From Brucellaceae bacterium (GTDB taxonomy: Bacteria > Pseudomonadota > Alphaproteobacteria > Rhizobiales > Rhizobiaceae): a DNA stretch of 64,000 nt. A program made the position numbers and the translations under genes. Positions 1-45,002 of this stretch are shown here, piece after piece. Location: positions 124,001 through 188,000 of the forward strand of contig JACKJV010000002.1 in the NCBI GenBank assembly GCA_020637775.1, in the 5' to 3' direction. Every line of letters starts with the position of its first letter. Within the stretch, counting starts at the first letter, position 1. The notes under the pieces were generated by a model that did no database searches, was not told where the DNA came from, and worked only from the letters and a program-made list of their open reading frames with translations.

Positions 1-219
1 CGGATCCGCCTCTTCCGGCGTCAGCGCGATCTTGGGATCGAGATCCCAGCCAATGATCACGATACGCTGGCGGGCGTGCGGCAACACACGCGCAAGCGCC
101 TCGAAATAGGCTTTCGCGTCGATGAGAAAGGCCGAGCGATCGCTTTCCCGGATGATCTGGCAGTTCCTGCCTTCGCGGGCTATGGGCCCGGAAGGCTCCC
201 CGGCATTCTTCATAGGCAT
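1..219 (-). CDS. Phospholipase D family protein, N-terminal part (cut by window edge)
   Basis: Only the first 73 codons are present; the gene runs off the left edge. The visible protein has the stretch SAFLIDAKAYFEALARVL followed by RIVIIGWDLDP. This matches the start of bacterial phospholipase D / cardiolipin-synthase-like proteins, where the chain opens with a short lead and then the first half of a PLD repeat. The HKD catalytic motifs would lie outside the window, so activity cannot be judged. Two in-frame ATGs lie two codons apart (219 and 213) and neither has a strong ribosome site. It lies 100 bases downstream of an endonuclease/exonuclease/phosphatase gene on the same strand. Those two families are often neighbours in proteobacteria, so a shared transcript is possible but not shown. 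Confidence 0.7.
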   Translation of the reverse strand, partial: MPMKNAGEPSGPIAREGRNCQIIRESDRSAFLIDAKAYFEALARVLPHARQRIVIIGWDLDPKIALTPEEADP

Positions 220-319
220 CCGTTCCGGTTGTTCCTGTTCACGAAGAGGTTGCGCTAGCCAAACTCCGGAACCGCCGAAAAGGTTTCCTTGCGCGGCCCC
301 GAAGGCCGGCCGTCCGCCC

Positions 320-1093
320 TCAGCCGATGGCGTTGCGCCGGTCCGTGCCGGGATGGATCTCGATGTCGGCGACCAGCGGCAGGTGGTCGGAGGCGATCGC
401 GGTGGCCGCATTGCGCACGGGCGCGATGGAATGAACGGTGATGTTTCCGCTCATGAAGATGTGGTCGAGGCGCAGGAACGGAAACCGGCTGGGAAAGGTG
501 GCGGCATGGTTGCGCCCGGCATTGGCGTCCTTCAGGTGACGAACCAGCCGCCGGTAGGCGCGCGAGCGCGGCACGGCGTTGAAGTCGCCCATCAGCAGCA
601 CCGGCTTGTGGCATTGCGGATCGCCGAGCCATTCCGGGCCCAGCAGGGCGTCCACCTGGATCGAGCGTTCGATTGCCAGGAGGCCCAGATGGGTATTGAC
701 CACCTGCAGGCTCGCCGGTGCCGTCTCGACCTCCACCCACAACGCGCCGCGCCGCTCCAGTTCGCGCCGCCGGATCGGGGCGGGCAGGCCGCCGCGCTTG
801 ACCAGCGTGTTTGGCAGGGCCGTGAAGATGGCATCGCCGAAATGCTCGTCCTGCACCTGGTAGGCCGGGTGGAAATGCATCTGCATGCCCAGCATGTGTG
901 CGATTTCGGAGGCCTGGTCGACACCGCCGGTGCGGGCGCGGCGCACATCCAGTTCCTGTAGCGATACGATGTCCGGCTTGCATGCGGCGATGACCTGCGC
1001 GATGCGTTCGGGGGAGAGAACCCGGTCGGTGCCCACGCAGCGATGCACGTTGTAGCTCATGACGCGGATGGTGCGGGCCCCGTGCCTGTCCAA
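320..1093 (-). CDS. Endonuclease/exonuclease/phosphatase family hydrolase
   Basis: Metal-dependent phosphodiesterase of the EEP (DNase I / exonuclease III) fold. Visible family marks are SYNVHRC near the start, the metal-binding LQELD, the catalytic region NTHLGLL, the GDFNAVP loop and the C-terminal SDHLPLVADI with the catalytic histidine. The frame stays open to 1162. I chose the TTG at 1093 because AAAGAGGAG lies six bases upstream of it, and homologous chains start just before the SYNVH strand. That gives 257 residues, normal for stand-alone members. No signal peptide is seen with this start. Substrate unknown: members cut DNA, phospholipids or inositol phosphates. It follows the cox operon by 95 bases on the same strand and precedes a phospholipase D gene, which would fit a role in lipid or nucleic acid turnover. 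Confidence 0.85.
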   Translation of the reverse strand: MDRHGARTIRVMSYNVHRCVGTDRVLSPERIAQVIAACKPDIVSLQELDVRRARTGGVDQASEIAHMLGMQMHFHPAYQVQDEHFGDAIFTALPNTLVKRGGLPAPIRRRELERRGALWVEVETAPASLQVVNTHLGLLAIERSIQVDALLGPEWLGDPQCHKPVLLMGDFNAVPRSRAYRRLVRHLKDANAGRNHAATFPSRFPFLRLDHIFMSGNITVHSIAPVRNAATAIASDHLPLVADIEIHPGTDRRNAIG

Positions 1094-1188
1094 TGCTTGC
1101 TCCTCTTTTCCCTCGCAATGCCAACCGCTGCAATGGTGCTTTGGTTCCGGCCGCCGGCGCAAGCCGCTTTCGTGTCTTTTCCCGCGTT

Positions 1189-1440
1189 TCAGCCGATCAG
1201 CGTCAATCCGTAGAGAATGCCGAGCCAGAGCAGCACGGCCGTGGCCGCGAGCCGCGGCAGCAGGCCCGGCCCGGCCAGATGCATGAAGACCATGGCGATG
1301 ATGACCGCCTTGGCCGCCGCGATCGCCAGGTTGAGCACCGGGTTGAAGGCACCGAGCTCGATGAATGAAAGCATCACCGTTGCTGCCAGCAGGACCAGCA
1401 GACAGAGCAGGGCCAGAACGGATTTGCCGATCTCGCTCAT
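1189..1440 (-). CDS. caa3-type cytochrome c oxidase subunit IV
   Basis: Small integral membrane subunit of the heme-copper oxidase, 83 residues with three predicted helices (about residues 7-28, 34-56 and 61-82). The pair ATVMLSFIELG and KAVIIAMVFMHL is characteristic of the prokaryotic cytochrome c oxidase subunit IV family, which packs against subunits I and III and helps assembly without binding a cofactor. Its ATG overlaps the stop codon of the subunit III frame (ATGA), so it is the last gene of the translationally coupled act-sco-cox operon. Because it depends on translation coming from subunit III, the internal stop in that gene could lower its expression. Downstream there are 95 bases before the next gene. 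Confidence 0.88.
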   Translation of the reverse strand: MSEIGKSVLALLCLLVLLAATVMLSFIELGAFNPVLNLAIAAAKAVIIAMVFMHLAGPGLLPRLAATAVLLWLGILYGLTLIG

Positions 1441-2075
1441 CGGTCGATCAGGTAGAGCACGGGGAAAAGAAACACCCAGACGATGTCGATGAAGTGCCAG
1501 TAGAGGCCGATGGCCTGCACCCGCCGCATGCGCCGGGCATTGTCGGAGGATCGCCACAGAAGGAGGATGACAAGCACGGCCAGGATGCCGGACAGCAGGT
1601 GCAGGGCATGCAGGCCGGTCATGGCGAAGTAGAGGTTGAAGAACAGTTCGGCCTGCGCGGGCGCCGGCCCGTGATAGCGGAAGGGCGCGCCAAACACCGG
1701 CGCCAGCCCCTCGGCATGTTCCATCGCATATTCGCTTGCCTTGATGGCAAGGAAGGCAGTGCCCAGAATGGCTGTGACGATCAGCGATCAGGCGGCAGGC
1801 CGGCCCTTGTGTCCCGCGGTGAAGATGTGCGCCAGCGCCATGAAGAAGCTGCTGGCGATCAGGACGGCCGTGTTGACGGTGCCGAGCGGCAGCGAGAGGT
1901 GCCCGGCCGCCTCGGCAAAGGCCTCGCCGTGCGCCAGCCGCGCGACGAGATAGACCAGCAGCACCGCGCCGAACAGCATGGCTTCCGAGGCGATGAAGAT
2001 CCACATGCCGAAGGCGTCCGCCTGGCGTTCGCGTTCGGCTGACCGGAAGGCTTCGCTGGAGACGGACGGGTTCAT
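1437..2075 (-). pseudogene. coxC: Cytochrome c oxidase subunit III, interrupted by one in-frame TGA
   Basis: Read straight through, the frame gives a normal five-helix subunit III of about 212 residues: helices near 23-46 and 61-83 before the break, and three more after it, ending in the family signature YWHFIDIVWVFLF. Codon 96 (bases 1788-1790 on the plus strand) is TGA, after HKGRPAA and before SLIVTAILG. The frame is the same on both sides (2075 minus 1724 is a multiple of three), so this is a nonsense change and not a frameshift. One base away lie TGG (Trp) or CGA (Arg), either acceptable there. The start overlaps coxA by ATGA and the end overlaps subunit IV by ATGA, and the sequence after the stop shows no decay. 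A recent mutation or a base-calling error therefore fits better than an old pseudogene. If real, the product would be a 95-residue two-helix fragment. Confidence 0.85.
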
Positions 2076-3682
2076 CGCTCACCCTCCGGCGGCGGATAGT
2101 CGTAGACAGGCCCGGTCGCCTCCGGCGTTTCCTCGAAATTGTGCGGCGGCGGCGGCGAGGGCGTCTGCCATTCAAGGCCGCTGGCGGCCCACGGATTGGC
2201 GCCGGCACGCTCGCCGCGGAACAGCGACCATGTGAGATAGCCGAGCGGCAGCAGGTAGCCGGCGGCCAGGATGACGGCACCGGCCGAGGACAGCACGTTC
2301 CAGAAGGCGAATTCCGGCGGATAGGCATGGTAGCGCCTCGGCATGCCGAGATAGCCGAGAATGTATTGCGGAAAGAAGGTGAGGTTGAAGCCGATGAAGG
2401 TCATGGCGGCGGCGATCTGCCCCCACAGTTCCGGATACATCCGGCCGGTCATCTTCGGCCACCAGAAATGCAGCCCGCCCATGAAGGCCGAGACCATGCC
2501 GCCGACCATGATGTAGTGGAAATGGGCGACCACGAAATAGGTGTCGTGCAGGTGAACATCCACCGCGATGGCGGCGACGAACAGGCCGGCCAGCCCGCCG
2601 AAGGTGAACAGCCCCAGGAAACCGAGCGCGTAGAGCATCGGCGCGGGAAAGCGCACATGGCCCTTGCGCAGGGTCAGGCTCCAGTTGAAGACCTTGATGG
2701 CCGAGGGAATGGCCACGCAATAGGACAGGAAGGAGAAGACGATGCCGGCATAGGCCGATTGGCCGCTGACGAACATGTGGTGGCCCCAGACCAGAAAGCC
2801 GAAGACGGCAATTGCCATGCTCGACAGTGCCACGGCCTTGTAGCCGAACAGCGGCCGGCGGCTGAAGCAGGGGATGAGTTCCGACACCACGCCCATGCCG
2901 GGCAGGATCATGATGTAGACGGCCGGGTGGGAATAGAACCAGAAGAGATGCTGGAACAGCAGCGGGTCGCCGCCGAGCTGCGGATCGAACACGCCGATGC
3001 CGATCACCCTCTCCAGCACGATCAGGATCAGCGTTGCGGCCAGAACCGGCGTTGCCAGCACCATCACAAGGCTCGTTGCATACATGGTCCAGACGAAGAT
3101 CGGCAGGCGGAACCATGTCAGCCCCGGCGCGCGCAGCTTGTGAATGGTGACGATGAAGTTGATGCCGGTCATGATCGAGGAAAAGCCGACGATGAACACC
3201 CCGAAGGCGGCGGCGCTGACATGGGAATTGGTCAGGCTGGACAGCGGCGTGTAGAACGTCCACCCCGTGTCCACCCCGCCGGCAACCACGGCGAACAGCG
3301 CGAACAGGCTGCCGGCCATGAAGACGTACCAGCTCGCCAGGTTGAGCCGCGGGAAGGCCAGGTCGCGGGCGCCCAGCATCAGCGGCAGCAGGAAATTGCC
3401 CAGCGTCGCCGGAATGGACGGCACCAGGAAGAACCAGATCATGATGATGCCGTGAATGGAGAAAAGGCGGTTGTAGATGTCGTCGCTGACGAGATCGCCG
3501 GCCGGACTGGCCAGTTCCAGCCGCATCGTCACCGCCATTGCGCCGCCGATGAAGAAGAAGAAGGTCAGGGCTGCGAAATAGAGCCAGGCCACGCGCTTGT
3601 GGTCCGTCGTTGCAAGCCATGCGCGCGCGCCCCAGCCGGTGGCGAAATAGCTTTGCGGCCGGTCTGCTGTCTCAACCGCCAT
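2072..3682 (-). CDS. ctaD: caa3-type cytochrome c oxidase subunit I (A2 / YSHP class)
   Basis: Catalytic subunit of the heme-copper oxygen reductase, 536 residues with 12 predicted helices. Metal ligands are visible: His77 (SIHGII) for low-spin heme, His252 with Tyr256 (HPAVY, the cross-linked His-Tyr pair), His301-His302 (GHHMF) for CuB, and the [11 protein letters not shown] helix carrying both heme ligands. The helix VI motif is [10 protein letters not shown]: the D-channel glutamate of A1 oxidases (HPEVY) is absent and replaced by the Tyr-Ser pair of A2 enzymes. The K-channel lysine is kept (PSAIKVFNW). A2 oxidases are typical partners of alternative complex III, which agrees with the upstream genes. 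The ATG at 3682 overlaps the end of subunit II, and the 3' end overlaps subunit III by ATGA. Confidence 0.97.
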
Positions 3683-4613
3683 CGCCGCCGCTCCCTCCCA
3701 TCGACCGGATGTATGCCACCAGCATCTGCAATTCGCTTTCCTCGATCAGCCCGTCGAAACTGGGCATGACCGGCGCATAGCCGGCCACGATCTGCTTTTG
3801 CGGCATCAGGATGGAATCGCGGATATAGGCCTCGTTCGCGATCACGGTCTGCCGGCTCTCCAGGGGAACCGGGCGCCCGAACAGGCCATCCAGCGAAGGC
3901 GCGCGAACCTGGCCTGATGGGCCGTGGCAGCCCGAACAGCCCAGCGCGCGGAACAGCGCCGCGCCCTGTTCGGCCAGCGAGGTGCTTTCCCCCTGCCGGG
4001 CCAGCCAGCCGGTGAAGTCCTCCGGCTTCATCACCACGATCCACCCGCCCATGGCCGAATGCTGGGTGCCGCAATATTCCGCGCAGAACAGGCGAAACCG
4101 GCCTTCCCTGGTCGGCGTGAACCAGACCCGCGTGGAGCGGCCCGGCACCGCGTCCTGCTTGACCCGGAAGGCCGGAACGAAGAAGGAATGGATCACGTCC
4201 TGACTGCCCAGCGTCACCTGCACCGGCTGGCCCAGCGGCACATGCAGCGTGTTGATCTCGCGCTGCCCGCCGGGATGGCGGAATTTCCACATCCGCTGCT
4301 TGCCGATGGCGGAGATGCGCAGCGCGTTTGCGGGCGGGCGCTGGTGGTCGACGAACAGGCGGGCGCCATAGGCGAAGATGATGAAGGCGATGACCACGCT
4401 GGCGCTGGTCCAGCCGATTTCCAGGGCCATGTTGCGCCTGCGCTGGCCGGACCGGTCGGCGGGCGAACCTTCGCGGTAGCGCACGGCATAGCCGATCACG
4501 AGTGCCGACAGGAACACGCCGAGCGCGCCCGAAAAGGCGACGAGAGCGAAGAACAGAACGTCGATTGACGGGGCGATGGAGGAGGCCTGCTCGGGGAACC
4601 AGCGAAACGTCAT
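3672..4613 (-). CDS. ctaC: Cytochrome c oxidase subunit II fused to cytochrome c (caa3 type)
   Basis: Electron-entry subunit, 313 residues. Two N-terminal helices (about 18-47 and 64-88) anchor a cupredoxin domain with the binuclear CuA site: His in [11 protein letters not shown], then [14 protein letters not shown] with both cysteines, the histidine and the methionine. A C-terminal class I cytochrome c domain follows, with CSGCH and a candidate axial methionine in APVMPSF. The fused heme domain defines the caa3 subtype and lets the enzyme take electrons directly from ACIII or soluble cytochrome c. No N-terminal cysteine lipobox is seen. The ATG overlaps the stop of the SCO gene by ATGA, which sets this start firmly although the same frame stays open much further upstream. 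Confidence 0.96.
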
Positions 4614-5371
4614 GGCCGCCTCCGCCAAACCAGGAAGCCCAGCGTCAGCGCCATGGCTGCCAGCATGCCCAGCGCTCCGGCACGCACGCCGGCCCATATC
4701 ACGGGCGTGTACTGGCCCTTGCTCGCGTCGAAGCCTGCACACAGCAGGAAGACCTGGTCCGCCAGGCTGCCGAGGCGGCCTTTCGAGGCCTCGGCCATGG
4801 CCAGCCGCAGGTCGCGCGGCGTCGCGTTCAGACCCGGCAGGGCCCGTGCGATCCGCCCGTCCGGCGTCAGCGCGGCGACAGCGACCGGATGCACGAACTG
4901 GCCGGCGCGCGGCCGTGCCGTGACATCCATTCCCGCCTGCGCCGCCAGCACCGGCCCCGCCGCGCCGGTCAGGAAGCGCCATGCCGCAAGACCGTCCGCA
5001 TCCGTCGCTCCGGCCATGGCATCCCTGGCGAAAACCGCATCGGCAGTGTCTTCCGAAGGGTCGATGGACACGAAAAGCACGCGATAGGTGTCCGGGGTGA
5101 GACCGGATCGGGTCAGGTCCGCCGCGACACCGCGCTGCATCACGCCGCACAGGTTGGGGCACCGGTCATAGCCGAAGATCAGGAAGGCAGGGCCGCCGCC
5201 CATGAATCGCGAAAGGGGTGCGCGGCGCGCCTGCGCATCGCTGAAGACAAGGCTGGTATCCAGCCGCTTTCCGATGGACGGATCGAAGCCGGGGCGTGAA
5301 ATGGCTTGCGCGCCCGCGGGGAGCGAAAGCATGAACAGCAGCAGCAGCGGGGCGAGGGCGGCACGGGTCAT
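4610..5371 (-). CDS. SCO1/SenC-family copper chaperone for CuA assembly
   Basis: Thioredoxin-fold periplasmic protein that delivers copper to, and reduces, the CuA site of subunit II, encoded by the next gene. It has 253 residues: a signal peptide (about 1-23, ending PAGAQA), the copper-binding CPNLC at 71-75 (a CxxxC motif) and the third ligand His161 in QFVHP. A C-terminal hydrophobic segment (about 224-249, followed by WRRRP) should anchor it to the membrane, as in other SCO proteins of oxidase clusters. Both ends overlap neighbours by ATGA (upstream unknown gene, downstream subunit II), so it should be made together with the oxidase. All metal-binding residues are present. Confidence 0.93.
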   Translation of the reverse strand: MTRAALAPLLLLFMLSLPAGAQAISRPGFDPSIGKRLDTSLVFSDAQARRAPLSRFMGGGPAFLIFGYDRCPNLCGVMQRGVAADLTRSGLTPDTYRVLFVSIDPSEDTADAVFARDAMAGATDADGLAAWRFLTGAAGPVLAAQAGMDVTARPRAGQFVHPVAVAALTPDGRIARALPGLNATPRDLRLAMAEASKGRLGSLADQVFLLCAGFDASKGQYTPVIWAGVRAGALGMLAAMALTLGFLVWRRRP

Positions 5372-5802
5372 GGTGCGCCCTCCCGGCATTTTGCGGCCTG
5401 CGGTGCCCGTGGCACGGCGTCCGCCAGCAATGCGCAGTCGTCTCCGGCCCGGTTCCGCGTGCCAGGGCGCGGCAGGCCGCGTTCTGCCACGATCCTCATC
5501 GCCTCTTCCACCGGAATGCGGGCAATGCCCGCTTTGCGGTCCACCCACTCAAGCCGTTCAAGCGCCTGCCGCTGGCGCGCGGCGAAAGCGGCTTGATCGC
5601 CGGCCGGATCATGTTGCAGGGCAGGCGTTGCGGCATTGCCCCGCGCTGCGCGGCCTTCCGGCTGCCATGGCGGTTCCGCGCCGAAGATGACGCGCAGCAG
5701 GACAAGCGCCACGAGGAGGAAGACGACGAGGCCGGCGGCGAACGCAAGCAGGGGCCTTGCGCGAACGTCGCGGGTTTCATGGGGTCGCGCGTTGTCAGCC
5801 AT
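5368..5802 (-). CDS. Unknown one-helix protein between actF and sco
   Basis: 144 residues, no name I can give with certainty. It has a short charged N-terminus, one strong transmembrane helix (about 19-40) and a periplasmic part rich in Gln/Arg/Ala (72-90). A conserved-looking C-terminal block follows, with WVDRKAGIARIPVEEAM around 87-103 and then ERGLPRPG. From memory, similar 'WVD..aG...IP...AM' blocks occur in small proteins beside SCO genes in other ACIII-caa3 clusters; this needs a search. One Cys (residue 123) and no heme motif. It starts at 5802 inside the end of actF and stops at an ATGA overlap with sco, so it is locked into the operon. An assembly or linker factor for the ACIII-caa3 complex is an inference from position only. 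Confidence 0.8.
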   Translation of the reverse strand: MADNARPHETRDVRARPLLAFAAGLVVFLLVALVLLRVIFGAEPPWQPEGRAARGNAATPALQHDPAGDQAAFAARQRQALERLEWVDRKAGIARIPVEEAMRIVAERGLPRPGTRNRAGDDCALLADAVPRAPQAAKCREGAP

Positions 5803-6934
5803 GGCGCACCTCCGGTCGGCAAGGCGAAAGGCGTGCGGATCGGAACAGGAGGGCCGTGAACAGCCCCGCCCAGAGACCGCCCGCGGCCAGAATGCCGGCG
5901 ATATCGGCGAGATGGACGTCGGACGGGCCCAACGGCAATGCCGGCCGCAAGCGCCACCATGTTGCCAGTGCCTGTCCGGCAAGCACGCAGGCCGCCAGCG
6001 CGATGATGCCGCGCCGCGACCCTTTCACGCGGGCCGAAAGGAAGCCGGCGAAAGGCACGGCAAAGCCGATCCCGATCATCAGCCACAGCAGATAGCGCCA
6101 TCCGCCCTCGACGCGGCGCAGATACCAGCGCGCCTCGTGCGGCAGGTCGCCGGCCCAGATGACGAGCCATTGCATATAGGCCATATAGGCCCAGATCAGC
6201 ATGAAGCCGAACAGGATGTTGGCAAGGTCGCGCGCCATCGTGGAATGGCTTTCGCCGCCCGGTTCCCGCGTCACGTTCTGGCGCAAGGCCGCCACCATCA
6301 CCGCCACTGCACAGGCCGATGCCGCCTGCGATGCCATGACCAGCATCGGATGGATCGTGGACAGGAAGCCGGGTTCCAGCGACATCATCCAGTCGGTGGT
6401 GAAAAACAGCATCGCCACCGCATGGGCGATCAGGGCGGCGGCACTGCCGCCCTTGTGCCGATGCCGCTGTCGCGCTTCACCGGGCGCGGTCCATGCCAGC
6501 GCGAGATGGCACAGCACCAGCCAGAGCAGGGCACAAAGGGTGAAGCGCAGCATGAAGAAGGGCAGGTTCAGATAGGCGAGCTTGTGACGCACCGCTTCCG
6601 GCATTGCGCTCTTGTCGGCCGCGGCCCACGGGAACAGGGCCTCGGCACCTGCCGCCAGCGGCACGAAAAGCAGCAGCGCCAGTGGCACCGTGGCGCTCAG
6701 GGCACGCAGTGCAGGTGAGAGCGCCCGGCCCCAGGCGCCGCCGGTCAGGATGTGGATGAAGAGCAATGTCATGGCGCCGAGCGCGAGGCCGAGAACGAAG
6801 GCCGACGCCGTGAACCAGCCCGCTGCCAGCCCCTGGGGTCCGAAGGCGGGGAGGGCGAGTGCCAGCACGGCAACGGCCGCGCCGCAAGAAACAGCGGCAA
6901 TTGCCGCCGGGGAGAGGAGGCGCGCACGGCTCAT
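5795..6934 (-). CDS. actF: Alternative complex III membrane subunit ActF
   Basis: Polytopic membrane protein of 379 residues with about ten predicted helices. It belongs to the ActC/ActF pair of quinol:cytochrome c oxidoreductase membrane subunits. ActF lacks cofactors; in known ACIII structures it packs next to ActC and, with ActD, shapes the membrane arm. Recognisable parts are FFTTDWMMSLEPGFLSTI and the late helix region PFAGFLSARVKGSRRG, both typical of this family. The ATG overlaps the actE stop by ATGA. The 3' end overlaps the next gene, of unknown function, by eight bases. Position as the last act gene before sco matches the standard actABCDEF order. Confidence 0.9.
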   Translation of the reverse strand: MSRARLLSPAAIAAVSCGAAVAVLALALPAFGPQGLAAGWFTASAFVLGLALGAMTLLFIHILTGGAWGRALSPALRALSATVPLALLLFVPLAAGAEALFPWAAADKSAMPEAVRHKLAYLNLPFFMLRFTLCALLWLVLCHLALAWTAPGEARQRHRHKGGSAAALIAHAVAMLFFTTDWMMSLEPGFLSTIHPMLVMASQAASACAVAVMVAALRQNVTREPGGESHSTMARDLANILFGFMLIWAYMAYMQWLVIWAGDLPHEARWYLRRVEGGWRYLLWLMIGIGFAVPFAGFLSARVKGSRRGIIALAACVLAGQALATWWRLRPALPLGPSDVHLADIAGILAAGGLWAGLFTALLFRSARLSPCRPEVRHG

Positions 6935-7476
6935 GACGAGTCTCCCGCCGGGCCAAGCTGATGGCGCAGCCGTTCTGGCAGGCTGTACACCGGCGCATGA
7001 TGGGCAAATTGCAGGGCGCGGATATAGGCGACGATCGCCCAGCGGTCGCGTGCCGGCACGCGTGAGGCATAGGAATACATCACGCCATAGCCGTCGGTGA
7101 TGACGTCGTAGAAATGCCGGTCCGGTGCCTGCCGCAGCGCTTCCCGGTGATAGCTGGGCGGTTTCGGAAAGCCGCGCTGGACGATCATCCCGTCGCCTTC
7201 GCCCGTACGTCCATGGCAGGGCGAGCAGAATACGTCGAAGCGCTCCTGCCCCCGGCGCAGCAGTTCCGGTGTGATGGCTTGCGGCATGGCGTCCGGGACC
7301 GGGGAAAGGTCGGCATCGCGCGCAACCGTTCCCGCGACGGGCGTCCGTGCAGAGGCGCCGTCGGCAAACAGGTCGCTTGCCTCCAGCGGGTCGTGGCGCG
7401 GTGCCTCGGCCATGTCCTGCTCGCAGCCCGAGACGAGAAGCGCGCACAGGAGGAGGGGCGGAAGCGGCGCCTTCAC
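6931..7476 (-). CDS. actE: Alternative complex III monoheme cytochrome c lipoprotein ActE
   Basis: 181 residues. The GTG at 7476 overlaps the actD stop (GTGA), and this start gives a short hydrophobic lead with lipobox LVSGC (Cys18), so the protein should be a lipid-anchored periplasmic cytochrome. One heme c site is present, CSPCH at 84-88, with GDGMI and later methionines (GVMYSYA) offering the sixth ligand. In ACIII the monoheme ActE passes electrons from the pentaheme ActA towards the oxidase. Starts further upstream would destroy the signal sequence, so the GTG start is favoured. Confidence 0.92.
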   Translation of the reverse strand: MKAPLPPLLLCALLVSGCEQDMAEAPRHDPLEASDLFADGASARTPVAGTVARDADLSPVPDAMPQAITPELLRRGQERFDVFCSPCHGRTGEGDGMIVQRGFPKPPSYHREALRQAPDRHFYDVITDGYGVMYSYASRVPARDRWAIVAYIRALQFAHHAPVYSLPERLRHQLGPAGDSS

Positions 7477-8000
7477 GGGTCCACCTCCGCCACTTCCCGC
7501 GCACCCATCCGGCGCAACAGGCTGGTGGTCTTCTCGCGGTCGAATGCCGGATCCCCGGCCTCGATCAGGATGCAGAAATTGCCCCCTGCTTCTGCCGAGA
7601 GCAGCGTCGAATTGAAGGCAGGATGATAGTATTGCGGCAGGCCGTTTGCTGCCAGCATGCCCAAAAAGGCCGCCAGGGCCGCGCCCAGGATGCCGCCTTC
7701 GAAGGCCAGCACGATGAAGGCCGGCCACGAATGCAGGCCGCGCCCGCCGGCATTGATCGGGTAGTCGGCGAGAACGGAATAGAGGATGAGGCCGTAGGTT
7801 GCGCCCGCGCCCAGCAAGGCTCCGGCGAGAACGATATAGGGCAGCCGCGTGGGCGCCATGCCCAGCGCCTCGGCAAGCCCTTCGACGGGGAAGGGCGAGA
7901 AGGCATCCATGCGCCGGTAACCGGCCTGGCGCAGGCGGCGCACCGCCTCGACCAGCGGATCGGGTCCGGAAAAGGAGGCAATGATCCCGAAGCAGGTCAT
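7473..8000 (-). CDS. actD: Alternative complex III subunit ActD (DUF3341)
   Basis: 175-residue DUF3341 protein. A small soluble alpha/beta N-terminal part (CFGIIASFSGPDPLVEAV and the DAFSPFPVEGL stretch, which marks this family) is followed by two membrane helices (about 55-78 and 92-119) and a C-terminal soluble tail. In ACIII structures ActD is a cofactor-free subunit that packs against ActC and ActF on the cytoplasmic side. The start overlaps actC by ATGA and the end overlaps actE by GTGA, so its production is tied to the complex. Length and layout are normal for the family. Confidence 0.93.
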   Translation of the reverse strand: MTCFGIIASFSGPDPLVEAVRRLRQAGYRRMDAFSPFPVEGLAEALGMAPTRLPYIVLAGALLGAGATYGLILYSVLADYPINAGGRGLHSWPAFIVLAFEGGILGAALAAFLGMLAANGLPQYYHPAFNSTLLSAEAGGNFCILIEAGDPAFDREKTTSLLRRMGAREVAEVDP

Positions 8001-9364
8001 GGCGCGGCCTCCTTCCGGTCATGCGCCAGTTCCTCCACCTCGAAGATCGTGATGGCAGGCAGGATGCGCACGAACAGGAAGACCAGCGCGAAAAACGTTC
8101 CGATGGATCCGAACAGGATGGCGAAATCGAGCCAGGTCAGCCAGCGTTCGTTCCATGCCGCGGGCAGGAAGCCGCGGCTCGGTCCCGTCACCACGATGAC
8201 GTAGCGCTCCAGCCACATGCCGACATTGACGATGAGCGAAATGGCGAACAACGCCTTCATGTTCAGCCGGACCCGTCGGAACCAGAGAACCGGCAGCACG
8301 CCCGCATTGCAGGTCAGCATGATCCAGAACAGCCAGCCATAGGGGCCGAAGGCGCGCTCCCACATCATGGTACGCTCATAGGCCTCGCCGGAATACCAGG
8401 CGAAGAAGGCTTCCGAGAGATAGCCATAGGCCACCACGAAACCGGCCGCCATCATGATGCGCGCCGCACTGTTCATGTGACGCAGCGTGATCAGATCCTT
8501 CACGTCGAACAGGTGGCGCAGCGGCACGGCGATGGTGATGACCATGGCGAAGCCCGAATAGAGCGCGCCGGCCACGAAATAGGGCGGGAAGATCGTCGAG
8601 TGATAGCCCGGCGCGATCGCGAAGGTGAAGTCGATGGAAACGATCGAATGCACGGAAACGACCAGCGGCGTGGCCAGCGCGGCCAGCAGGAAATAGCTTG
8701 CGTTGAAGCGCGCCCAGTGAAAGGCGGACCCGCGCCAGCCGAGCGCCAGGATGCCGTAGAAATAGCGTGCCGCGCGGCTTTTCGCCCGGTCGCGAAGGAT
8801 GGCGAGATCCGGCAGCAGTCCCATGTACCAGAACAGCAGCGAGACCGTCGCATAGGTCGCGATGGCCGCGAAATCCCAGACCAGCGGGCTGCGCCATTGC
8901 GGCCAGTGCATGTGGGTATTGGGCATGGGCAACAGCCAGTAGAAAAACCACGGCCGCCCGAGATGGAGGATGGGAAACAGCCCGGCCATGGCCACTGCGA
9001 ACAGCGTCATCGCCTCGGCAAAACGGTTGATCGAGGCCCGCCAGGGCTGGCGCAGCAGCAGGAGTACCGCCGAGATCAGTGTGCCGGCATGGCCTATGCC
9101 GACCCACCAGACGAAATTGGAGATCATCGTCCCCCAGGCGACCGGAATGTTGATGCCATAGGCGCCGACACCTGTCGCGATGAGGTAGACGATGGCATGC
9201 AGCAAGACGAGCACGAGCAGGAAAGCGGCAAGGAAGGCCAGCCAGAAATGGCGCGGCAGCCTGCCCGCCAGAACGACCGAACTGATCCGCCTGCTGATTT
9301 CCTCGCGGTCATGAAGCCCGCGCAGAACCGGAAACCGCTCCTGCCTGTCCGCCGCCTCAGCCAT
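7997..9364 (-). CDS. actC: Alternative complex III quinol-binding membrane subunit ActC (NrfD/PsrC family)
   Basis: 455 residues, about ten predicted helices, NrfD/PsrC family. ActC forms the quinol-oxidising site of ACIII next to the iron-sulfur part of ActB. Family landmarks visible are WWVGIGHAGTLISAVLLLLRQPWR, whose histidine is in the conserved quinone-site region, then NRFAEAMTLFAVAMAGLFPILHLGRPW and the HSIVSIDFTFA helix. I start it at the ATG at 9364, eight bases inside actB, because longer readings run through actB sequence. The end overlaps actD by ATGA. Confidence 0.94.
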   Translation of the reverse strand: MAEAADRQERFPVLRGLHDREEISRRISSVVLAGRLPRHFWLAFLAAFLLVLVLLHAIVYLIATGVGAYGINIPVAWGTMISNFVWWVGIGHAGTLISAVLLLLRQPWRASINRFAEAMTLFAVAMAGLFPILHLGRPWFFYWLLPMPNTHMHWPQWRSPLVWDFAAIATYATVSLLFWYMGLLPDLAILRDRAKSRAARYFYGILALGWRGSAFHWARFNASYFLLAALATPLVVSVHSIVSIDFTFAIAPGYHSTIFPPYFVAGALYSGFAMVITIAVPLRHLFDVKDLITLRHMNSAARIMMAAGFVVAYGYLSEAFFAWYSGEAYERTMMWERAFGPYGWLFWIMLTCNAGVLPVLWFRRVRLNMKALFAISLIVNVGMWLERYVIVVTGPSRGFLPAAWNERWLTWLDFAILFGSIGTFFALVFLFVRILPAITIFEVEELAHDRKEAAP

Positions 9365-12257
9365 CGGCCATGTCCTTGCCCTGCCGCTTCGCAAGGTCGG
9401 GATGCGGGTTCTTGATCTCGGCAAGATAGGTTGTGCGCGGGCGTGTGCCGAGATGGGCAAGCAGCGCGTAGTCATGCGGCGCGGCCTTGTCCGCGACGAC
9501 CTGCGCATCCGGGTCATTGAGATTGCCGAAGGTGATGGCCTGCGCCGGGCAGGCCTGCTGGCAGGCTGTGACCACCTCACCGTCCGCGATCGGCCGGTTG
9601 TCGATCTGCGCGTCGATCCGCGCCCGGCTGATGCGCTGGACGCAATAGGTGCATTTCTCCATCACGCCGCGCGAACGCACGGTGACATCCGGGTTTCGCC
9701 CCGCCTGTCTTGTGTCGGCCTCGTCGCCGAACGTCTGGTAGCCGAGGAAGTTGAAGCGGCGCACCTTGTAGGGGCAGTTCTGCGAACAGTACCGGGTGCC
9801 GATGCAGCGGTTGTAGACCTGTGCGTTCAGGCCGTCATGGGTATGCACGGTTGCATTGACAGGGCAGACCACCTCGCACGGCGCCTTCTCGCAATGCATG
9901 CAGGGCACTGGCTGGAAATGGGTCTCGGGCGCTTCGGGCGGCCCGGTATGGTAACGGTCGATGCGCAGCCAGTGCATTTCGTGGCCGATGGCGCATTCCT
10001 CCGGCCCGACGGCGGGAATGTTGTTCTCCGCCTGGCAGGCGCTCACGCAGGCCATGCAGCCGGTGCAGGCGGTCAGGTCGATCGACATGCCCCACGCTTC
10101 CTGCTCGTAGTCCCACTCGGGATAGAGTGATTCCGGCTCGGGCTCCGGCTCCGGCAAGCGGCCGTCGCGGACATCCTCCAGCGTCGCGGTCCGCAGGATG
10201 TCGCGTCCTTCCATGCGCTGGTGATGCTGCGTGGTCACGAGATCCATTTCACCATCGCTTGGCTCGATGGCGGCGCCGGTGGCCAGCCATGGCGTTCCGG
10301 CCTGGCGAAGCGGATAGGCATCATGGCCGAGCGCGTCGCGGGTGACCGTCTGGTCGGCACTGCGAATCTGGCCCAGTGTCAGTGTCAGCGTGTCCTCGGG
10401 CTGGCCCGGAACGATGAGTGCGGGCGCTGCCAGCCGCCTGTCGCCATGCGAGACCGTGATTGCCTGCCCGTCGGCAATGCCGAGCGACCGCGCCGTTGCC
10501 GGTGCCAGAAAGACCCCGTTGCCCCAGACGGTCTTGGTGACCGGATGCGGCAGTTCCTGCAGCATGGCGCAATTGGCATGGCGCCCGTCGCGCAGGAAGG
10601 GATGGGCAACGAAACGGATGTCCAGCCCGGAGGCCGGCCGCTCCTGCCGCAAGGTGGAGGGATCGCGGCCCCTCCCTCTCACGGGAAGCGGTGCGGCGGC
10701 GCTGCCGGAAATGGTGCCCCGCTTCAACGCCTGTTTCCAGACCGCGTCGTCGAGGTTCTCCCACGTCGCGCGCACAAGGGCACGCGAATCGCCGCCCGGT
10801 TCCGGCGCAAGCGTGGCCAGCATCTCCGGCAGCGTCCTTCCGCCGAAAAGCGGGCGGATCAGCGGTTGCTGGAGCGATGCGGTGCCGTCATGACCGCGCA
10901 GGTCGCCCCAGCTTTCCAGATCATGCGCGGCGGGAATGTGCCAATCGGCCAGCACGGCGGTATTGTTGCCACAAAGGCCCCAGTGGATGAGCGTGTCGAG
11001 GCTGGCAAACGCGCCTGCCGCGTCGGTATCGCCGGGCGCTGTGGCAACCGGATCATGCGCAAATGCGAAAACGGTGCGGATCCCGCCATTCCGAATGGTG
11101 TCGCAGAGGTCGCCGAGATCGCCGTCGGTCGAAAAGGCGCCCGGCCGCTCGATCAGGTCCACCGTGTGGCCAAGGCTGCCGAGCGCCGCATTCGCGCCCA
11201 TGGCCACGGCATGCACGAACGCGCTCTGATGTGCCCCGGCCACCACCAGCGCCTCGCGCCCGGCGGCGCGCAGGTCTTCCACCATGATACGGATGAAGGC
11301 CGCATCGACCGGAAGATCGTCGGAAAACGTGTCGCCCGCCAGGGCCGAAGCAATGGCGGCGGCAACGGCATCCGTGTTCGAAGGGCGCATGGCCTGCCGG
11401 TGATCCGCGCATGCACCCGTGATGGTTGGCGTCGTTTCCAGCATGTAGAGCCGGTTCATGCCGTCGCCGGCCTCGCGCACGCGCCGGTTTTCACTGAAGG
11501 CGCGCGCATGCGCCAGGCGGCCGGCGCCTTCGCCAAGAAAATCGCTGTCAAGGTTGAGAATGCGGCTTGCGCGGTCCAGCCGGGGCAGCGCCACAAGATC
11601 GCGGCCGAAGAGATGACGCATCGCCTGGCTTTCGCCCTGGGCGGCCAGCGGGTCGTGCATGAAGATGCGCAGGGCAGGGAAGGTTTCCCGCAAACCGGCG
11701 AGCTGGCGCAGCACGGTGGGCGATGTCGTGGCTTCGATCAGCAGTGCCGTCGAAGCGCCCCGGTCGGTGGCCATTTGCGCCCGCAGCCGCGCCGCATCGG
11801 CGAGAAAGTCACCGAAGGCGGCCATTTCGCCACGCTTCACCGGCGCGCGCGACCGGTCCGGGTCGAACAGTTCCCAGACCGCCGCCTGCATCACCGCATC
11901 CGTTGCGCCCAGCGAAGACGGGTGGTCCGGATTGCCTTCCACCTTGACCGGACGCCCCTCATGCGCTTCCACCAGCGCGCCGATGCCGAAGCCGCCGCTG
12001 GCAAGCGTCGTTGCATAGGTTACCGGGATCCCCGGCACCAGCGTCTCCGGCTGTTCGACATAGGGCACGATGGCATCCGGCGGGCTGCATGCGCCCAGAC
12101 CGGCGGCAGCGGTGGTCGCCGCCATCATCTTCAGCAGGCTGCGCCGCTCGATCCGGGGCGGGCCATATTCCGGCTCGCGAACGGAGGCTGCGCCGCCTGC
12201 CTCCTTGCCGGCATCGAGCTCGTCCAGACCGCGCCAGGGGTTATCGGTGGCAGACAT
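9357..12257 (-). CDS. actB: Alternative complex III iron-sulfur subunit ActB (molybdopterin-oxidoreductase-like)
   Basis: 966 residues joining a catalytically empty molybdopterin-oxidoreductase-like N-terminal half to an NrfC-like iron-sulfur C-terminal half. A twin-arginine signal (ERRSLLKMMAA, about 39-49) with GLGACS just after it suggests Tat export and perhaps a lipid anchor. The C-terminal part has four cysteine groups: CTGCMACVSACQ, CMHCEKAPCEVVC, CIGTRYCSQNCP and CTYCVQR with CQQACPA. The third lacks one cysteine (Thr in CIGT), as expected for the [3Fe-4S] cluster, leaving three [4Fe-4S]. These form the chain from the quinol site in ActC to ActA hemes. The start at 12257 overlaps actA by 17 bases and the end overlaps actC by 8. 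Confidence 0.96.
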   Translation of the reverse strand: MSATDNPWRGLDELDAGKEAGGAASVREPEYGPPRIERRSLLKMMAATTAAAGLGACSPPDAIVPYVEQPETLVPGIPVTYATTLASGGFGIGALVEAHEGRPVKVEGNPDHPSSLGATDAVMQAAVWELFDPDRSRAPVKRGEMAAFGDFLADAARLRAQMATDRGASTALLIEATTSPTVLRQLAGLRETFPALRIFMHDPLAAQGESQAMRHLFGRDLVALPRLDRASRILNLDSDFLGEGAGRLAHARAFSENRRVREAGDGMNRLYMLETTPTITGACADHRQAMRPSNTDAVAAAIASALAGDTFSDDLPVDAAFIRIMVEDLRAAGREALVVAGAHQSAFVHAVAMGANAALGSLGHTVDLIERPGAFSTDGDLGDLCDTIRNGGIRTVFAFAHDPVATAPGDTDAAGAFASLDTLIHWGLCGNNTAVLADWHIPAAHDLESWGDLRGHDGTASLQQPLIRPLFGGRTLPEMLATLAPEPGGDSRALVRATWENLDDAVWKQALKRGTISGSAAAPLPVRGRGRDPSTLRQERPASGLDIRFVAHPFLRDGRHANCAMLQELPHPVTKTVWGNGVFLAPATARSLGIADGQAITVSHGDRRLAAPALIVPGQPEDTLTLTLGQIRSADQTVTRDALGHDAYPLRQAGTPWLATGAAIEPSDGEMDLVTTQHHQRMEGRDILRTATLEDVRDGRLPEPEPEPESLYPEWDYEQEAWGMSIDLTACTGCMACVSACQAENNIPAVGPEECAIGHEMHWLRIDRYHTGPPEAPETHFQPVPCMHCEKAPCEVVCPVNATVHTHDGLNAQVYNRCIGTRYCSQNCPYKVRRFNFLGYQTFGDEADTRQAGRNPDVTVRSRGVMEKCTYCVQRISRARIDAQIDNRPIADGEVVTACQQACPAQAITFGNLNDPDAQVVADKAAPHDYALLAHLGTRPRTTYLAEIKNPHPDLAKRQGKDMADG

Positions 12258-12897
12258 AGCAATCGGTCATGGTTTCGGGGTGGATCTCTTCCTCCATCAT
12301 CAGAAGGGCGCGCAGCCGCGCGATGTCGGCGGGCGGCTGCCAGTCGGTGTCGAACACGTCCTTCCGTGGACGCAGGTTGGGTTCCGGATTGCGATGGCAG
12401 TCCAGGCACCAGCTCATCGTCAGCGGGCTGGCCTGCCAGGTCAGCGCCATCGTGTCGACGGGGCCATGACAGGTGGTGCAGGCCACGCCCTTGTTCACAT
12501 GGATGGCATGGTTGAAATAGACGAAGTCCGGCAGGTCATGCACGCGATTCCAGGAAATCGGCGTTCCGTTTGCCAGGCTGCTGCGCACCGGCTCCAGCAT
12601 GTCGGCATTGGTCCACAGTTGCGAATGGCATGTCATGCAGGTTTCCGTCGGAGGCAGTCCGGCGAAAGCGGAGGTCTCGACGCCGGTATGGCAATAGCGG
12701 CAGTCGATGCCGAGCGCCCCGGCATGATGCTTGTGGCTGAACGGCACCGGCTGGGTCATGTCGCGCTCCATTCCCGTCACCAGGGACGATCGTGGCAAGG
12801 CCGCCAGCACGAAAATGACGGCAAGGACGAGCGTCACGCCGCCCCACAGGACAAGACGTGCGATCTCGTTGGAATGTCGTCCGAAAAGCTGGCTCAT
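12241..12897 (-). CDS. actA: Alternative complex III pentaheme cytochrome c ActA
   Basis: 218 residues. One N-terminal membrane helix (about 13-35) anchors a periplasmic domain with exactly five CxxCH heme sites: CRYCH, CMTCH, CTTCH, CLDCH and CYVCH. Free histidines (SHKHH, NHAIH) can serve as bis-His ligands. This layout is that of ActA, which receives electrons from the ActB iron-sulfur chain and hands them to ActE or a soluble cytochrome. It is the first recognised gene of the operon. The GGAAGGGG ribosome site sits very close to the ATG, so starting may rely partly on coupling to a possible short upstream frame that ends in ATGA here. A signal peptidase site is not obvious, which supports a retained anchor. 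Confidence 0.94.
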   Translation of the reverse strand: MSQLFGRHSNEIARLVLWGGVTLVLAVIFVLAALPRSSLVTGMERDMTQPVPFSHKHHAGALGIDCRYCHTGVETSAFAGLPPTETCMTCHSQLWTNADMLEPVRSSLANGTPISWNRVHDLPDFVYFNHAIHVNKGVACTTCHGPVDTMALTWQASPLTMSWCLDCHRNPEPNLRPRKDVFDTDWQPPADIARLRALLMMEEEIHPETMTDCYVCHR

Positions 12898-13079
12898 CCC
12901 CTTCCGCCGCGCATCATCACGATCGGATAACCGGCGAAGGGATCGATTGTTCCCGTGGAAGCTGCTGCTGCCGGCGCGGCGCCCAGGCCCGACCGCACAA
13001 ATATGTCAGCAGGCGCGCCAAACGTGATCGCGGCCGGCCCATTGCAGCCACCTTCGCATGCCATTACCTGCAATGACAT
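12894..13079 (-). CDS. Possible short upstream frame coupled to actA (doubtful)
   Basis: An open frame of about 61 codons ends in GGA TGA exactly over the actA start (ATGA overlap), as all other junctions of this operon do. The peptide begins MSLQVMACEGGCNG and includes AAITFGAPADIFVRSGLG and a Gly/Arg-rich end. It has no signal peptide, helix or family I know. It fills the 202-base gap between actA and the divergent zinc-ribbon gene, so the promoter would have to lie inside or upstream of it. It may be a leader peptide, or only the untranslated promoter region with a chance frame. Confidence 0.25.
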   Translation of the reverse strand: MSLQVMACEGGCNGPAAITFGAPADIFVRSGLGAAPAAAASTGTIDPFAGYPIVMMRGGRG

Positions 13080-13099
13080 ACCGAGGAGAGAGAACCACG

Positions 13100-13333
13100 A
13101 TGGCATTCGACGAAATCAGGGTCCTGGACATGCTCTGCAACCATTGCGGTTCAAGGAACCGGCTGACCTTCGATGATGGCAGCGACAATTGCCGGCTCGA
13201 CTGCTCGAATTGTGGGCGAACCATCGGCTATATCGACGCCATCGGCCGCTACGGTCTTTACGAGGGCAAATCGGCGGCCCAACCTGTTCCCTCATGGATT
13301 CACGGACGCGAGAGGCCCGAGGCGGAAATCTGA
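13100..13333 (+). CDS. Small zinc-ribbon protein of unknown function
   Basis: 77 residues, no family name recognised. Two cysteine knuckles, CNHCGS (about 14-19) and CSNCG (about 35-39), are spaced like a zinc ribbon and should bind one zinc. Between them lies RLTFDDGSDNCRLDCSN with two more cysteines. The C-terminal half is polar (IGYIDAIGRYGLYEG). No membrane segment. GAGGAGAG at 13083-13090 gives a clear ribosome site for the ATG at 13100. It is transcribed divergently from the ACIII-caa3 operon across about 200 bases, a place where regulators are often found. A nucleic-acid-binding or metal-sensing role is a guess from the ribbon alone. Confidence 0.75.
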   Translation: MAFDEIRVLDMLCNHCGSRNRLTFDDGSDNCRLDCSNCGRTIGYIDAIGRYGLYEGKSAAQPVPSWIHGRERPEAEI

Positions 13334-13342
13334 TCGTGGCCC

Positions 13343-13366
13343 GGTGACGGGTTCGTGCCGGTCACC
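13343..13366. terminator. Hairpin between convergent genes
   Basis: GGTGACGG (13343-13350) can pair with CCGGTCACC (13358-13366) with one bulged G and a seven-base loop. It sits between the zinc-ribbon gene (plus) and the flavoprotein gene (minus), overlapping the last codons of the latter. There is no T-run, so a role as terminator is only suggested by position. Confidence 0.35.
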
Positions 13367-14774
13367 CGCCGGGCAGGAAGCCGTCGTCGCGCTCGCGCGG
13401 CCTCGGCGCACTCACGGCTTCGCAGATTTGCCGCAAGGCGTCTTTCAGCCCTTCCTCCACTGTCGGATGGTAGAAGGGCATGGACAGCAGGCCTTGCGCC
13501 GTCACGCCCTGCTGGATGCTCCAGGCCAGCGCATGGGCCAGATGCTCCATGTCCGGCCCGAACAGCGTGGCCCCGACAAGGCGGCCGCTCGCCGCATCCG
13601 CGTGGAGCTTGCTCAGGCCCGCCGTTCGCCCTTCCAGCCGCGCCCGGCCCTGGTTGTCGAACCGGGCGCGTCCCGAGACTGTCTTTCCTGCATGTTCTCC
13701 CGGCTGGTGGCCGACCATGGCGACGTTGGGATCGGTAAAGACGATGTTCAGCCGTGTCATCCGCGATGACGGCTTGACCACCGGATAGGACGCGGCATTC
13801 ATGCCGGCCGTCGCGCCTTCGGCCGCTGCTTCATGCAGGACAGGCCTGCTGCCATTGGCATCGCCGGCAATGAAGACCGGCGTGTCACCGCATTGCAGTG
13901 TCTGCGGATCGAAGCGCGGCAGGCCGTCTTCGCCGGTCACGAGGCCCGCCGCGTCAAGGCCGAGATCCTGCACATTGGGTGAACGTCCGGCGGCCACCAG
14001 AAGCCGATCGAAAACCTCGCTGGCACCATTTTCCCGGATGACGGCCACGCCACCGCCGGCCCGCTCTGCTCTCATGTCAACGCCCGTATGGACCGCGAAT
14101 TCGCGGCGCATGGCGACGAGGAAGGCGGCATTGATTTCGTCATCTTCGATCTGTGCCAGCCGTTCGCCCTTGTCATGGACGGCGACGCGCACACCAAGAC
14201 GGTGCAGCGCCTGTGCGATCTCGATACCCAACGGCCCCGCCCCGATCACCCCGACCGAGGCTGGCAGGCGGTCGAGGTCGAAAAGCGTCTCGTTGGTCAG
14301 GATCAGGTCGCCCAGGGCGGCGAACGGGCCGGGAACGCGCGGCGAGGCGCCGGTGGCAATCACCACCGCGCGGGCCGACACGCGTCTTCCATCGTCGAGC
14401 AGCAGCTCGGTCGGCCCCTGAAACCGGGCGCGCGCCCGCAGCGCCGTTCCGTCGGGCAACGCGTCGAACCCCGCTTTGACGCCCTCGACGAAGCGCCGGC
14501 GTTCGCCATGCAGACGTTGCATCACGTCTGCCGTGTCGATGTCGATATCGTCGGTCTGAATGCCGAACAGCGGTGCCCTCAATGCTCCATGCGCGGCCTT
14601 GCCCGCGGCAATGAGCAGTTTTGAAGGCATGCAGCCCACCGTGGCGCAGGTCGTTCCGGCAAAGGCGGGATCGATGAGAACCGTGCGTGCGCCCGCGCTG
14701 CGGGCCTTGCGTTCCGCCACGATACCGGCCGTGCCCGCGCCGATAACCGCCACATCGGTATCAATGGCGGTCAT
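13362..14774 (-). CDS. Dihydrolipoamide dehydrogenase-like flavoprotein disulfide reductase
   Basis: 470 residues, class I pyridine nucleotide-disulfide oxidoreductase. FAD-binding GAGTAGIVAERKA opens the chain, the redox pair is CATVGC (about 43-48, a CxxxxC), the NAD(P) fold is GVIGAGPLGIEIAQAL, and the second FAD contact is FIAGDANG. The C-terminal dimer domain carries the catalytic HPTVEEGLKDAL. All catalytic residues are present. The usual GGTCLNVGCIPSK is altered to GTTCATVGCMPSK, so it is a divergent paralogue and not the pyruvate dehydrogenase E3, which would sit with E1/E2 genes. Dihydrolipoamide, mycothione- or glutathione-like substrates, or a soluble transhydrogenase-like role, are all open. 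It lies convergent to the zinc-ribbon gene and upstream of small membrane protein genes on the same strand. Confidence 0.85.
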   Translation of the reverse strand: MTAIDTDVAVIGAGTAGIVAERKARSAGARTVLIDPAFAGTTCATVGCMPSKLLIAAGKAAHGALRAPLFGIQTDDIDIDTADVMQRLHGERRRFVEGVKAGFDALPDGTALRARARFQGPTELLLDDGRRVSARAVVIATGASPRVPGPFAALGDLILTNETLFDLDRLPASVGVIGAGPLGIEIAQALHRLGVRVAVHDKGERLAQIEDDEINAAFLVAMRREFAVHTGVDMRAERAGGGVAVIRENGASEVFDRLLVAAGRSPNVQDLGLDAAGLVTGEDGLPRFDPQTLQCGDTPVFIAGDANGSRPVLHEAAAEGATAGMNAASYPVVKPSSRMTRLNIVFTDPNVAMVGHQPGEHAGKTVSGRARFDNQGRARLEGRTAGLSKLHADAASGRLVGATLFGPDMEHLAHALAWSIQQGVTAQGLLSMPFYHPTVEEGLKDALRQICEAVSAPRPRERDDGFLPGG

Positions 14775-14820: not shown

Positions 14821-15063
14821 TCAGCGGGAATCGTCCTTGCTGAACAGGTGCGGGTAATAGTTGTTGCGAATCCGCAGCCTTGGTGCCAGCACCCAGGCCA
14901 CAGGCACCGTGAGCGCGAATGCCGCCGCCACCACGGCCGGCAGGACATACTCCATGTAGGGACGCAGCGCCGGGATCGACAGCACCAGCGTTGCAAAACT
15001 GCCGAACAGGACGGCATTGACGGGCAGGGCGAGCATTCCGGTCATGAATGTGCGGGTACGCAT
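14821..15063 (-). CDS. Small two-helix membrane protein, unknown
   Basis: 80 residues, not recognised. Two predicted membrane helices (about 8-30 and 37-60) lie between a basic N-terminus (MRTRTFMTG) and a C-terminal tail RLRIRNNYYPHLFSKDDSR, placing both ends probably on the same side. The start is chosen by a clean GGAGG six bases before the ATG at 15063; the frame stays open upstream without such a site. It lies 46 bases upstream of the flavoprotein gene on the same strand and could share its transcript. Confidence 0.65.
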   Translation of the reverse strand: MRTRTFMTGMLALPVNAVLFGSFATLVLSIPALRPYMEYVLPAVVAAAFALTVPVAWVLAPRLRIRNNYYPHLFSKDDSR

Positions 15064-15146
15064 GAAAAACCTCCATTGGTGTTCGGGAGAAAACGTCCGG
15101 CCTGCATGGCTGGTTCCGGCCGGCGGGCAAAACGCCGGCAGGGAAC

Positions 15147-24811: not shown

Positions 24812-25738
24812 GTGACCGCAATCGTTGAAGTCGAAAACCTGTCCAAGATCTATGAGGGCGGATTCGCGGCCCTCAAGGGCGTGGACCTGACGATTCGCGA
24901 CGGCGAGATCCTGGCCCTGCTCGGACCGAACGGCGCCGGCAAGACCACGCTCATTTCCATCATCTGCGGCATCGTCACCGCGACATCGGGCAGCGTGCGT
25001 GTCGGCGGGCACGATATCGGGACGGACTATCGCGCCGCCCGCTCGATGATCGGCCTCGTGCCCCAGGAAGTGGCGCTGGAGCCGTTCGAGACCGTTCTTT
25101 CCACCGTCCGCCTGACACGTGGCCTGTTCGGCAAGAAGCGCGACGACGCCCATATCGAGAAGGTGCTGACCAGCCTCTCGCTCTGGGACAAGCGCGATAC
25201 GCCCACCAAGGCGCTCTCGGGTGGCATGAAGCGCCGCGTGCTGATCGCCAAGGCGCTGTCACATGAACCGCGCGTCATCTTCCTCGATGAGCCGACCGCC
25301 GGGGTGGACGTGGAATTGCGCAAGGGCATGTGGGACATCGTCCGCCAGTTGAAGGCCGACGGCGCCACCATCATCCTCACCACCCACTATATCGAGGAGG
25401 CCGAGGCCATGGCCGACCGCGTCGGCGTCATCAATGACGGCAGGATTCTGCTCGTCGAGGACAAGGACACGCTGATCCGCGATCTCGGCCGCAAGGACCT
25501 GACGCTGACCTTGGCAGAACCGCTGGCGGGCCTTCCGGCAGCGCTTGCAGGCCATGACCTGGCGCTGATCGATGACGGCTGCAAGATCCGCTATTCCTTC
25601 GACAGCGCGGCCGGAAAGACCGGCGTCACCCGTCTGCTCAACGATCTTGCCACGGCCGGCCTCACCGTGACCGATCTGGACACGCGCCAGAGTTCGCTGG
25701 AGGAAATCTTCGTGGGCCTGGTCAAGGAGACGGCATGA
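24812..25738 (+). CDS. ABC-2 type exporter ATP-binding protein
   Basis: 308 residues, ABC ATPase of the drug/polysaccharide exporter (CcmA/YadG-like) group. Walker A is [10 protein letters not shown]-loop VPQE, signature LSGGMKRR, Walker [13 protein letters not shown] and switch histidine [17 protein letters not shown]-terminal extension of about 80 residues follows the ATPase core, usual in this group. The GTG at 24812 is chosen with GGGGACAGG just upstream; an earlier start would run into the terminator region. Its stop overlaps the permease ATG by ATGA. Substrate unknown. Confidence 0.93.
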
Positions 25739-26496
25739 ATTTCACCGCCATCGCAGCCATCTACCGCTTCGAGATGGCGCGCACCGCGCGCACGCTGCTG
25801 CAATCCATCATCTCGCCGGTTCTTTCCACCGCGCTGTACTTCATTGTTTTCGGCGCGGCGATCGGTTCGCGCATCGAGCAGGTCGACGGTGTCGATTACG
25901 GTGCCTTCATCGTGCCGGGCCTCATCATGCTCACCGTGCTCACGCAATCGGTCACCAATGCTGCCTTCGGCATCTACTTTCCGAAGTTCATCGGCACGGT
26001 CTACGAATTGCTGTCCGCGCCGGTCTCGTTCATCGAGATCGTGATCGGCTATGTCGGCGCCGCTGCCACCAAGGCCTTCATCATCGGGTCTATCATCTTC
26101 GCCACGGCGCATCTTTTCGTGACCCTGCCGGTTGCCCATCCGGTCTGGGCGCTGGCATTTCTCGTGGCCACCTGCGTCAGTTTCGCCCTGCTGGGCTTCA
26201 TCATCGGCATCTGGGCAGCCAATTTCGAGCAATTGCAACTGGTGCCGCTGCTCATCATCTCGCCGCTCGTCTTCCTCGGCGGCAGTTTCTATTCGATCAC
26301 CATGTTGCCGCCCTTCTGGCAGACGGTGTCGCTGTTCAATCCGGTCGTCTACCTGATCTCGGGTTTTCGCTGGGCCTTTTTCGGCCTGTCGGATGTTCCG
26401 GTTGCCGCAAGCCTGGCCGCCATACTTGCCTTCATGTCCCTGTGCATCGCGGTGATCTGGCTGATCTTTCGCACCGGTTGGCGCCTGCGCGCCTGA
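25735..26496 (+). CDS. ABC-2 type exporter permease
   Basis: 253 residues with six predicted membrane helices, ABC-2 transporter family. It pairs with the ATPase encoded just upstream (ATGA overlap). Family marks are the N-terminal amphipathic region before helix 1 ([15 protein letters not shown]), [16 protein letters not shown] and the C-terminal LNPxxYxxxxxR-like [19 protein letters not shown]. YadH-like carriers of this type export small lipids, drugs or polysaccharides; nothing here indicates which. It is followed by a GC-rich hairpin and a convergent gene. Confidence 0.92.
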
Positions 26497-44925: not shown

Positions 44926-45002
44926 GTTTTCCTCCTTCCGGCGTGCTGGGGGTATCGGCCGGCTGTTTGATCGCCCTCATTCTATCCGCCCCAGGCCCGC
45001 TC

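Follow-up and report, generated by a model that had tools for sequence, protein, structure and literature searches.

The operon and the interrupted coxC frame

The 64-kb stretch of DNA analysed here (the window; 65% GC) carries an operon in the order ActA, ActB, ActC, ActD, ActE, a gene at the ActF position, a small gene, SCO, coxB, coxA, coxC and coxD, and this succession of Act-type genes followed by SCO and the four cox genes on a single strand identifies it as an ACIII-caa3 operon. Pfam matches along the operon are to multiheme c, Fe-S protein, NrfD, ActD, cytochrome c, SCO1, COX2, COX1, COX3 and COX4_pro; neither the small gene nor the one at the ActF position matched a Pfam family, and both were placed by gene order alone. 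The features are as follows.

1189..1440, minus strand: coxD (ctaF, COX4_pro); its ATG overlaps the natural stop of coxC (ATGA), with a modest ribosome site (-5.8 kcal/mol)
2075..1437, minus strand: coxC (ctaE, caa3 subunit III), whole frame of 212 codons; start ATG at 2075, natural stop TGA at 1439..1437
1788..2075, minus strand: N part of coxC, 95 aa with two predicted helices; GGAGG precedes the ATG at 2075 (-11.1 kcal/mol)
1790..1788, minus strand: premature TGA at coxC codon 96, which reads TCA at 1788-1790 on the plus strand
1437..1787, minus strand: C part of coxC, 116 open codons and the natural stop TGA; predicted helices 3-5
2072..3682, minus strand: coxA (ctaD, subunit I), intact, 536 aa
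3672..4586, minus strand: coxB (ctaC, subunit II with a cytochrome c domain), intact; upstream end approximate
4610..5371, minus strand: SCO1/SenC copper chaperone gene, intact
5368..5802, minus strand: small operon gene, no Pfam match; start approximate; 5371-5700 open in comparison with the sister genome G130
5795..6934, minus strand: gene at the ActF position, intact; no Pfam match, named from gene order only
6931..7473, minus strand: ActE (cytochrome c domain), intact; start approximate
7473..8000, minus strand: ActD, intact; Pfam ActD 183.7 bits
7997..9517, minus strand: ActC (NrfD), intact; upstream end approximate
9357..12257, minus strand: ActB (iron-sulphur domains), intact; named from order and domains
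12241..12897, minus strand: ActA (multiheme cytochrome c domains), intact; named from order

Both the coxA/coxC and the coxC/coxD junctions are ATGA overlaps. Apart from codon 96 the coxC frame is open throughout and its C part lies in the same frame as its N part, which bears out the sequence-only reading of a TGA at codon 96 between two halves of one frame. Five helices are predicted from hydropathy at about residues 26-44, 70-88, 93-111, 155-173 and 189-207, placing the TGA at the beginning of helix 3. The C half had been described as having three helices, which holds when it is counted from the stop (helices 3-5) but not when it is counted from the internal ATG, after which two helices remain. 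Pfam COX3 matches in the C part (36.5 bits, cut-off 23.8) and the N part alone has no Pfam COX3 match, while a coxC profile built from 120 listed relatives matches both parts of the window frame (137.5 and 195.7 bits). The proposal that the other 11 genes of the operon are whole also stood, as none has an internal stop in comparison with G130 (5371-5700 only in the case of the small gene).

Comparison with a sister genome and other relatives

The sister genome G130 shares synteny with the window, aligning by blastn at 11-13333 (84% identity), 14821-15127 (80%) and 15368-63998 (84%), with 92% identity over coxA-coxC. Between positions 13334 and 15367 the window has about 2.0 kb of DNA compared to only about 0.4 kb at that place in G130, and a 470-aa ORF within the extra DNA (13362-14774), FAD/NAD oxidoreductase-like by eye, has no counterpart there in G130. 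The coxC gene of G130 is an open frame with Trp at codon 96. The dN/dS of coxC relative to G130 is 0.209 before the stop, 0.190 after it and 0.199 for the whole frame, and this similar constraint on both sides, with no relaxation, suggests that the stop is recent, although these ratios span the entire divergence from G130 and hold little information on the time elapsed since the stop arose. Relative to most other frames, dS is low in coxC (0.28), coxD (0.30) and coxA (0.31), covering 1189-3682, which could reflect either exchange between lineages or codon bias.

Stops were scored across the window in 62 conserved non-overlapping frames with a dN/dS under 0.45 relative to G130, some of them still non-genes; the overlap filter had removed coxC and ActD, which were scored separately against G130. 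Four of the 62 frames contain a window stop, in no case inside a window gene. One (1636-1926, plus strand) is antisense to coxC, and the stops in 25330-26493 (plus), 50360-53206 (plus) and 44743-45021 (minus) precede the starts of window ORFs at 25735, 50837 and 44925, respectively. With all four frames being antisense to a gene or having their stops upstream of ORF starts, an error-ridden assembly is unsupported.

A search of a protein database with coxC returned 2963 matches, of which the best 120 were listed. P0001 (212 aa; nine member sequences on three contigs, the longest of 1,253,175 bp) differs from the window coxC solely in having Trp at residue 96, the remaining 211 residues being identical; residue 96 is Trp in P0002 and P0004 as well. 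Across the best 120 of the 2963 matches this residue is Trp in 73, Leu in 20, Arg in seven and something else in 20 (Cys in only three of the 120 listed, which gives little reason to think of selenocysteine here), suggesting that residue 96 is not itself critical. The Trp anticipated at this codon by the sequence-only reading is found in the nearest kin (P0001, P0002 and G130) as well as in those 73 proteins. The letters of P0001 would also fit a TGA-bearing contig like the window translated under another genetic code with the stop read through; in a GC-rich genome we judge this unlikely.

We also compared 100 relative loci that contain coxA (L001-L100), which are partly non-independent as some genomes are counted twice. 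The gene for subunit III lies in one open frame in 96 of them, with 92 giving a single match of at least 170 of the 212 profile columns and four giving two matches in one frame, and is interrupted in none; of the remainder, one is ended by a contig edge and three have no coxC. A COX3 subunit encoded in one uninterrupted frame is accordingly found at 96 of 96 usable relative loci, but not in the window. The frame resembles the ACIII-caa3 CtaE/coxC proteins of Mesorhizobium and its kin in its 212 aa, five predicted helices and COX3 match in the C part, and the named Mesorhizobium and Aquibium coxC proteins among the matches listed are about 55-67% identical to it; it differs from them in being broken by the TGA at codon 96.

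Origin of the stop at codon 96

When the 95-aa N part was used as the query, three matches were obtained. The best of these, P0121, is exactly 95 aa long, ends at the same residue as the window N part and is represented on five contigs, the longest of 2303 bp. At residues 48 and 50 it departs from the window and agrees with G130. P0122 shares these G130-like residues, carries Trp at 96 and shows one further difference at 135, such that Trp or a stop is found on both residue-48/50 haplotypes (window, P0001, P0121 and P0122). Either the stop is present on two haplotypes or the P0121 contigs end where a base of codon 96 varies, and under both readings P0121 points to real variation at this codon. 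The P0122 fragment stops at residue 140 and P0127 (61 aa) begins at residue 152; the longest contig is 953 bp for each, perhaps one and the same, and the pair may reflect either a fault of assembly or a further broken coxC.

The explanation that we consider likely is that the window carries a recent natural nonsense allele of coxC, the subunit III gene of the caa3 oxidase linked to ACIII. It is supported by P0121 together with the intact alleles alongside, since G130 and P0001 provide the unbroken gene in close kin that a pseudogene or nonsense allele should have, and the mutation is probably segregating in the population. Known nonsense and frameshift pseudogenes of dispensable genes are similar in combining a single inactivating change with an intact allele in kin, and in that the function is probably covered here by other oxidases; unlike them, both halves of the window coxC are still conserved, which indicates that the change is very recent. 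If P0001 is a true Trp allele, the occurrence of stop and Trp on both haplotypes would need repeat mutation or recombination. Three options had been offered by the sequence-only reading, of which lack of a full subunit III is the best supported, with readthrough or suppression and a base error both less likely.

A single-base sequencing or assembly error within an intact coxC would account for the similar constraint on the two halves, for P0001 matching everywhere except residue 96 and for the 96 usable relative loci among which none is broken. We nevertheless regard it as unlikely, because none of the stops scored lies convincingly inside another gene of the 64 kb and because P0121 ends at the same codon on five other contigs and on a different haplotype; the window TGA is probably not a lone base error. 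Readthrough of the TGA, by a suppressor or by tRNA-Trp misreading UGA, would yield some full-length subunit III with Trp at residue 96. Near-cognate misreading of UGA would insert Trp, which is the very residue lost, and the C half of coxC is conserved, as this reading would have it. Set against these points, no in-frame UGA is kept in relatives (coxC is interrupted at none of the 96 usable loci), as UGA recoding would lead one to expect; P0121, on a near-identical haplotype, may alone share the stop. Nor is UGA reassigned, given that TGA terminates 38 of 47 listed ORFs of the window, coxC among them (a list picked by hand, with a few possibly non-genes), and an altered genetic code is ruled out by TGA being the main terminator. 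The 64-kb window contains no tRNA genes, and the one tRNA-Trp found in G130 by exact pattern is ordinary, with anticodon CCA and, from its letters, a 5-bp anticodon stem. It differs in this from the bacterial tRNA-Trp with a 4-bp stem which can read UGA, as reported in PMC13092985. On balance we find readthrough improbable. A further reading, in which the stop has arisen or been exchanged repeatedly to give an on/off polymorphism of coxC, with a trace of full-length protein still made through misreading of UGA by tRNA-Trp, strikes us as very improbable.

The sequence-only reading had further raised the possibility of a subunit split in two, for which there are two candidate restarts.

1722..1724, minus strand: internal ATG at coxC codon 118, which would yield 95 aa with helices 4-5 only; ribosome site -2.8 kcal/mol
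1695..1697, minus strand: internal GTG at coxC codon 127, which would yield 86 aa with helices 4-5 only; ribosome site -9.1 kcal/mol

Translated separately from either codon, the C part would have to assemble with the N part. An open 95-aa frame with an internal ATG is available for this, and a fair ribosome site precedes the GTG at 1697. The site of the ATG at 1724 is weak compared to that of the true coxC start (-2.8 versus -11.1 kcal/mol), which alone decides nothing and is no bar, as two of 13 assumed gene starts are weaker still (ActB, -1.7, and the gene starting at 56931, -1.9). A two-gene subunit III (CtaE and CtaF) is also described for M. smegmatis, though divided elsewhere, in PMC8361435. 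Opposing these points, the ATG at 1724 lies in the main body of values for 65 ATGs internal to four operon genes (-12.6 to 0.9), and helix 3 sits between the TGA and this ATG, so that both internal starts follow helix 3 and a core helix would be missing. There is consequently no start of its own ahead of a complete second part, as a gene split into two should have. Furthermore, none of the 96 usable relative loci is split, and the window's exact 95-aa N and C pieces are absent among the matches listed (for the C piece, 120 of 121 matches). A two-piece subunit III thus seems scarcely credible, and the claim of a split subunit is unsupported given the unsplit relatives and the helix omitted by both starts.

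Probable consequences for the oxidase

With the favoured nonsense allele, ribosomes would make a fragment of 95 aa comprising helices 1-2 of 5 and then stop. Translation of coxD would probably be lowered too, given that it starts by an ATGA overlap with coxC and that its own ribosome site is only modest (-5.8). The caa3 oxidase would be impaired or lost. An oxidase without subunit III may still retain activity. The loss may be tolerated where other terminal oxidases carry respiration. In G130 there are three COX1 matches and two COX3 matches, comprising beyond caa3 two additional subunit I genes of heme-copper oxidases, one near the second COX3 gene, and no match to cytochrome bd oxidase. By kinship with G130 only, the cell from which the window derives probably has other oxidases as well, making caa3 probably dispensable.

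According to PMC8361435, many oxidases lose activity during turnover when subunit III is removed, and in the F. johnsoniae ACIII-oxidase supercomplex contact with ACIII is made by a subunit III of five helices. From these roles, as given there, the 95-aa fragment should harm caa3. The F. johnsoniae subunit, like that of the window, has five helices and lacks canonical helices 1-2, but according to the same text it is complete and contacts ACIII, whereas helices 3-5 of the window subunit are cut off. If real, the window allele amounts to a natural knock-out, an ACIII-linked oxidase deprived of its subunit III, for which close kin have an intact allele that is otherwise identical, and in light of what PMC8361435 reports the pair would make a convenient natural test of subunit III in ACIII contact and turnover stability. 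As a genome feature it would be an ordinary inactivating mutation and not a novel type of split gene.

Three other coxC-like proteins, P0123 and P0126 (Mesorhizobium NFR06 and M1403, respectively) and P0124 (on a 900-bp contig), have ends that look foreign, as though they were chimeric or had been cut or frameshifted; that of P0123 looks frameshifted by eye. Loss of caa3 subunit III may be recurrent in Mesorhizobium and its kin.
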